Of a stretch of 60,420 nucleotides of DNA, positions 23,261-23,752 are shown in pieces. This DNA is from Deltaproteobacteria bacterium. Its GTDB lineage: Bacteria; Desulfobacterota; Deferrisomatia; Deferrisomatales; BM512. The DNA lies in contig PKTT01000037.1 in assembly GCA_002869015.1 (NCBI GenBank), positions 5,126 through 65,545 on the forward strand, in the 5' to 3' direction. Numbering within the stretch: the stretch's first letter is position 1; the number at the start of each line of letters is the position of its first letter. Under the pieces are notes generated by a model, which was not told the DNA's origin, made no database searches, and saw nothing but the letters and a program-made list of their open reading frames with translations. The position numbers were made by a program, and so were the translations under genes.

Positions 23261-23752
23261 TTATTTTTGAAGTTCACTTCGACCGGGGCATAGGTTGCTT
23301 TGTCCACCGGTCTTTCTTAAACAGATCAGGTTTGTCTTTACCCAGCCGGAGTTCGTATAGAACTTCTCAGCGGGTCCATTATCTTTGTCGGCTAGAAGCT
23401 GGAGGCGCGTCGCACCCACCGACTCCGCCCATACTTCAACTTCCTTCAAGAGCTGTGCGCCGACTCCGGTACCCCGGAATTGCTTTTCGACGATTAGGTC
23501 TTCAACGAGTACGACCTTGCCGCCCTCTGCCGTTGATATTAAGAGTTGCCCTGTGACCATACCCACAACGCCGTCCGCAGCTTCCGCTACAAAAACCCTT
23601 GAGTTTGCTCCAGAGGAGATGAGCATATTCAATCCACTCAGCTGCTTCTCCATCTCAGGGGTAAAGTCCCTCTCGATGGAGAAGAGTTCTTCTAGGAGGG
23701 CCGCCATTTTGGCAGTGTCCTCCGGGGTTGCGGTTCGGGTCGTTAGGTTCAT
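23261..23752 (-). CDS. GNAT-family N-acetyltransferase inside the nif operon
   Basis: Acetyl-CoA-dependent acetyltransferase, 163 residues. The GNAT core has [19 protein letters not shown], whose QFRGTGVG is the pyrophosphate-binding loop (about residues 92-99). Strand beta5/alpha4 region [21 protein letters not shown] follows. It sits nine bases after nifK and 13 before nifH on the same strand, so it must be cotranscribed with nitrogenase. It is not one of the standard nif genes. Its target is unknown; a nitrogenase component or a small metabolite are both conceivable. It is not similar over its length to the second GNAT at 30069. Confidence 0.88.

Follow-up and report, generated by a model that had tools for sequence, protein, structure and literature searches.

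Serine acetyltransferases have a left-handed beta-helix fold and acetylate a hydroxyl group. The nif-linked member NifP/CysE is a precedent for a small-molecule acetyltransferase tied to nif genes (PMC11980358, PMC6428710), and its loss lowers nitrogenase activity by about 60% in engineered Synechocystis (PMC11980358). In N2-fixing Zymomonas mobilis, NifA K45, NifH K12 and NifK K395 are acetylated and the nif island includes a SIR2 gene (PMC8600466), which is a precedent for the modification, not for a GNAT enzyme. Microoxia upregulates Bradyrhizobium bll1906 (PMC6515984), described as an ‘N-acetyltransferase NrgA homolog’, which is also listed in a nodule study (PMC4926349). We found no paper describing a GNAT in nif clusters in the open-access literature, although an earlier mention elsewhere is possible.

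Few accessory nif genes are still unnamed, and knowing which genes nitrogen fixation needs, or is tuned by, matters for basic science and for agriculture. The GNAT gene described here belongs to a superfamily of known kind; its nif context and its Glu76 signature are new, and the family is apparently undescribed.

The GNAT gene and its operon

The window, that is, the whole 60,420-nucleotide stretch of DNA that was analysed, contains a ten-gene minus-strand run, nifD-nifK-GNAT-nifH-fdx-nifE-nifN-nifB-draT-draG, in which genes overlap or are separated by gaps of at most about 20 bp. The GNAT ORF starts with ATG and encodes 163 amino acids. The features of the locus are as follows.

23261..23752, minus strand: nif-operon GNAT N-acetyltransferase; CoA loop RGTGVG at 93-98, ST-A-E-G with Glu76; E27, E84 and D85 are predicted to lie on the acceptor side
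26839..26854, minus strand: exact sigma-54 -24/-12 match TGGCATGGCCATTGCT, located 60 bp before nifD begins; putative promoter of the GNAT operon
25147..26778, minus strand: nifD, over the TIGR01282 cut-off
23762..25213 (ORF as listed; likely ATG near 25135), minus strand: nifK, over the TIGR01286 cut-off
22423..23247, minus strand: nifH, over the TIGR01287 cut-off
22114..22419, minus strand: thioredoxin-like [2Fe-2S] ferredoxin of the C. pasteurianum / Shethna-I type (NF041612 E 8e-20, below cut-off)
20733..22100, minus strand: nifE, over the TIGR01283 cut-off
19363..20736, minus strand: nifN, named by its position after nifE; its score falls marginally short of the nifN cut-off, and its slightly better nifK score is below cut-off too
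18069..19343, minus strand: nifB with a C-terminal NifX-like domain, from profile matches
17271..18062, minus strand: draT, dinitrogenase reductase ADP-ribosyltransferase (PF07357 E 5e-99)
16403..17362, minus strand: draG-like ADP-ribosylglycohydrolase (PF03747 E 6e-69)
27076..28626, minus strand: nifA-like sigma-54 activator, GAF-AAA-Fis (TIGR01817 526.4 bits, just under the cut-off of 528.85)
28629..29753, minus strand: nifV-like homocitrate synthase of the upstream operon (TIGR02660 435 bits, under the cut-off of 462.9)
29890..29905, minus strand: second exact sigma-54 -24/-12 match, upstream of nifV-nifA

The sequence-only reading had described a tightly packed gene with a complete acetyl-CoA loop and no standard nif name, and each point holds. 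Nine bases separate the gene from the nifK stop, which ends at 23762, and 13 from nifH at 23247; the loop R93-G-T-G-V-G98 matches Q/R-x-x-G-x-G/A; and all NCBIfam equivalogs fall below their cut-offs. The protein matches Pfam Acetyltransf_1 (PF00583) with E 4.6e-14, at 53.1 bits against a cut-off of 20.7, whereas among the named NCBIfam acetyltransferase equivalogs (HaaN, AAC types, RimI, ArsN and others) its best score is 48.8 bits against a cut-off of 250.

Since NifP/CysE is itself a nif-linked acetyltransferase, the gene might be a stand-in for it: cysteine and Fe-S cluster synthesis would then draw on an acetylated precursor, for example O-acetylserine, made by this enzyme. However, the predicted fold is that of a GNAT, unlike the serine acetyltransferase fold, no serine acetyltransferase (NifP/CysE) model is among the profile matches of the protein, and no cysteine-synthesis gene was seen beside it. 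We consider such a stand-in extremely improbable.

Just two exact matches to the strict -24/-12 pattern occur in the 60-kb window, both at nif operon starts. When one mismatch is allowed, the total count in the window is within chance, so it is the exactness and the location of the two matches that carry the promoter argument. The NifA-like activator gene lies immediately upstream of the GNAT operon; the NifA site TGT-N10-ACA shows no excess in the window and does not occur upstream of nifD. From the tight operon, the upstream sigma-54 promoter and the adjacent activator gene, coexpression of the GNAT gene with nitrogenase is well supported as a prediction from sequence. Upstream of nifV, at 30069-32106 on the minus strand of the window, there is another GNAT, of RimI-like type, whose gene overlaps one for a RimK-like ATP-grasp protein (RLAN domain); this GNAT keeps the same place in genome G001 (L110).

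The closest relative lies on PKTU01000030.1, a contig from a deltaproteobacterial MAG of the same genus, where the GNAT is 75% identical. The order nifK-GNAT-nifH is kept there, which indicates that the arrangement is more than chance. The gene is under purifying selection, looser than that on its neighbors (dN/dS 0.137 against the PKTU01000030.1 copy, compared to 0.005-0.043 for the neighbor genes), and the GNAT family evolves faster than the Nif proteins.

Occurrence in the phylum and the Glu76 signature

A family profile built from ten members was searched in 297 genomes of the phylum, partly MAGs, of which related ones are not independent; the survey covers this one phylum. Twenty-four genomes scored at least 145 bits, followed by a gap down to at most 76 bits. 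All 24 are among the 74 sampled genomes with nifD (p 1.3e-16). By residue 76 they divide into 21 with Glu and three of a sister type, and the Glu76 genomes are nifD-positive in 21/21 cases (p 1.9e-14), or 15/15 when counted by genus (p 9e-10); these p-values ignore shared ancestry and hence are optimistic. Across 395 genomes of the phylum, Glu76 members occur in 27, and most nif genomes of the phylum lack the GNAT.

As a control, 888 kb around nifD were searched in the 49 nif genomes that lack the family. This gave four weak GNAT matches, all to a different, longer GNAT protein. GNATs of the family type are therefore no general background of nif clusters; at the same time, nifV can have an unrelated GNAT as its neighbor. 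These unrelated proteins, of about 275-320 aa, lie directly beside nifV (overlap to 113 bp) at L072:1468-2331, L069:13784-14749, L086:18409-19233 and L076:13205-14092. They share a conserved LGSIG/LGSVG end, and two of the four match a second GNAT domain (Acetyltransf_18).

Glu76 within an ST[A/S]EG motif is found in 20/20 different nif-linked sequences and 0/5 sister sequences. The nif-linked subfamily is defined here by Glu76 in this motif together with a place in a nif, mod or PII locus, and the protein under study fits on both counts. Because distant outgroup GNATs made the tree unreliable through long branches, it was rebuilt without them; the Glu76 group of 18 then separates from the rest with support of 100/99, and two further nif-linked sequences, G037 and G288, pair up closer to the sister type.

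The sister GNATs with STALG (Nostoc sp. HK-01, Sulfuricurvum kujiense, G159, G206, G098, G324 and G347) are about 35-38% identical and have the same other motifs. In the sister type, however, Leu or Gln replaces Glu76 and the genes are mostly outside nif clusters, with G306, in a nif cluster, and G329 (STVCG), by amtB-PII, as exceptions. Plasmid-borne relatives are of the sister type only. Beside the sister gene on a Nostoc sp. HK-01 plasmid (L021:5911-9230), nifD is apparently split in two by an ISKra4-like transposase gene. In Sulfuricurvum kujiense (L022:1336-2616), a fusion joins the sister GNAT with an Ada-like AraC-HTH / O6-methylguanine methyltransferase part, and a glutamine amidotransferase gene comes next.

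Glu76 members lie inside nif clusters in 24/27 cases (18/21 in the 297-genome sample), and the other three are in molybdate-transport, PII or nifV loci. The slots of the 24 are next to nifK, nifA, fdx/nifE, fdx/nifV or nifB/nifV. The arrangements seen are listed by genome; the mod, PII and amtB neighbors were identified by visual inspection of the sequence, and tblastn also matches them.

nifK-GNAT: the genome under study, G001, G005, G007, G010
nifA-GNAT: G011
ferredoxin-GNAT before nifE: G050, G178, G201, G063, G283, G097
ferredoxin-GNAT at the end of the detected cluster: G263, G152
ferredoxin-GNAT-nifV: G046, G254
nifB-nifV-GNAT: G037, G288
PII-GNAT-modB-modA-modC-nifV: G004
modB-modC-GNAT, with a 4-bp overlap of modC and GNAT: G083
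PII-GNAT beside amtB: G002

The commonest neighbor in other genomes is a [2Fe-2S] ferredoxin, which is found in 17/24 genomes with the GNAT compared to 17/49 without it. We rejected it as an obligatory partner, as it is absent from several GNAT clusters and the enrichment is confounded by descent. A protein of about 150 aa without a Pfam match (consensus ILYNxVAMAIEK...NHTM.DL...) also recurs in nif clusters, in several directly adjoining the GNAT (L126:10257-10718, L122:8991-9446 and L125:10360-10818; also L124, L123, L049, L058, L096 and L098).

Eleven new genomes were then drawn, with the expectation fixed beforehand that Glu76 members would be nif-linked and the others not. All six Glu76 members are in nif clusters. 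For the five members without Glu76 the expectation failed in part: two are unlinked (G324, G347) and one is beside amtB-PII (G329), but two are nif-linked, one between draG and nifH (G306) and one a divergent copy upstream of nifH (G367). Glu76 thus predicts nif linkage, whereas its lack does not exclude linkage. The G367 copy (L130, 323-769 of the reverse strand) has lost two glutamates, Glu76 and that of the E-D pair (VVND where others have xxED), a sequence change that suggests altered or lost activity.

The sequence-only reading had called for a neighborhood analysis of homologues, with random scatter as the result that would count against it; instead, the gene is nif-linked across many genera, and in varying positions. 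A rival reading makes the gene a passenger, a generic GNAT carried in the nif operon without a role in fixation. Its fast evolution and its lack in most nif genomes would fit a passenger, as would the many GNATs that genomes hold and the unrelated GNATs near nif genes. However, the gene is under purifying selection, and members of this one subfamily occupy several different slots in nif, mod and PII loci, with 27/27 linked, which one insertion does not explain. Because the GNAT was repeatedly placed in different nif contexts, the pattern is hard to explain by passive carriage, and we regard the passenger reading as quite improbable. The GNAT is probably a genuine accessory nif gene that recurs in the phylum, accessory because most diazotrophs of the phylum lack it.

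Predicted active site and possible acceptors

A confident AlphaFold model of the protein (pLDDT 87.8) has the GNAT topology, with Z about 20 to solved GNATs. Its best structural matches are the DpA polyamine acetyltransferase, HPA2, AAC(6'), AAC(3), SSAT and thialysine acetyltransferases. In the alignment, E27, E84 and D85 coincide with conserved acidic positions of SSAT1 and thialysine acetyltransferase; they match E28, E92 and D93 of SSAT1, which we take to be its acidic acceptor residues. E76 falls in the turn predicted to connect two of the central strands (61-73 and 78-88), and in GNATs this turn faces the acceptor. A point against the explanation favored below is that four relatives (G201, G063, G283 and G320) have His in place of the FY-motif tyrosine, a frequent general acid in GNATs. 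We infer a cationic amine as acceptor, with the caveat that fold likeness among GNATs is weak evidence on this point, and aminoglycoside, protein and polyamine enzymes all rank close. By sequence, the best matches bearing on kinship to the SSAT / thialysine group are weak and mixed.

We favor an explanation that, taken whole, we put at an even chance: the Glu76 subfamily would belong to the nif regulon in an accessory role and be expressed along with nitrogenase from the sigma-54 promoter. Acetyl-CoA would bind at R93-GTGVG-98 and its acetyl group would pass to a primary amine in an acidic pocket. The predicted pocket has E27, E84 and D85, as in thialysine and polyamine acetyltransferases, and E76, which is peculiar to the nif type. 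The most likely acceptor would be a small amine, cationic or lysine-like, and its acetylation would benefit diazotrophic growth; we believe and doubt this proposal in about equal measure. Three points favor a free amine: the structural neighbors, the varying genomic partners, and the finding that no lysine of the Nif proteins covaries with the GNAT. If the enzyme does act on a small amine, diazotrophy would have an unsuspected metabolic need.

Alternatively, the enzyme could acetylate a lysine or the N-terminus of a nitrogenase component, a maturation factor, NifA or PII, as a regulatory layer beside DraT/DraG; we think this unlikely, though worth weighing. The GNAT gene shares one operon with nifHDK and draTG, and draTG is also adjacent in G007. 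PII genes directly adjoin the GNAT in G002 and G004, SIR2 is present in 18/21 and HDAC-type deacetylases in 20/21 GNAT genomes, and the Zymomonas mobilis proteome has acetyl-lysines on NifH, NifK and NifA (PMC8600466). However, no lysine tracks the GNAT in Nif-cluster proteins: in NifH, NifD, NifK, NifE, NifN, NifB and the ferredoxin, none is exclusive or nearly so to GNAT genomes. The best candidates, NifD K172 (19/19 vs 12/31) and NifH K54 (0.88 vs 0.46), are both confounded by descent. Furthermore, the deacetylases are generic and, in the genome under study, lie on another contig; the GNAT occurs both with and without draTG; and its slots vary, with no constant partner. A nif-linked deacetylase partner was considered and rejected, SIR2 and HDAC being widespread and no special link to nif loci being found.

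Nitrogenase itself as the acceptor ranks below a small amine and is a tentative idea that we lean against. A dedicated nitrogenase-system acetyltransferase, by which the acetyl-CoA level would be read as acetylation of a nitrogenase component, its electron donor or PII beside DraT/DraG, is more doubtful still. If the enzyme does act on nitrogenase or PII, it would be a new control point. The sequence-only reading had envisaged such a layer, with acetylation of a nitrogenase component, a maturation factor or a small metabolite. Its coexpression and nif linkage are well supported by the operon, the sigma-54 site, the slots and the co-occurrence with nifD, whereas nitrogenase acetylation gains no support from lysine covariation and the regulatory layer is a candidate reading.

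Comparison with described enzymes

What distinguishes this GNAT is its recurrence in the diazotrophs of the phylum, a one-residue signature that predicts nif linkage and a predicted activity that can be assayed. The top structural match, the DpA polyamine acetyltransferase (8a9n, 8a9o; Z 20.9, rmsd 2.0 over 148 residues), has just 20% identity to it, and several other GNAT groups are within about one Z unit. With the thialysine / SSAT enzymes (SSAT1, SSAT2, 2fe7, 12jc; plant NATA1) it has the GNAT fold in common, and with thialysine acetyltransferase S-T-x-x-G near the acceptor loop. However, identity to these enzymes is about 22-26%, D29-F30 and E76 are not shared, and the nif context differs.

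Two described systems share the nif setting. NifP/CysE is likewise a nif-linked acetyltransferase, but differs in fold and chemistry. DraT/DraG are, like the proposed enzyme, target-modifying enzymes of a nif operon, here the GNAT's own, but what they carry out is ADP-ribosylation of NifH, not acetylation.
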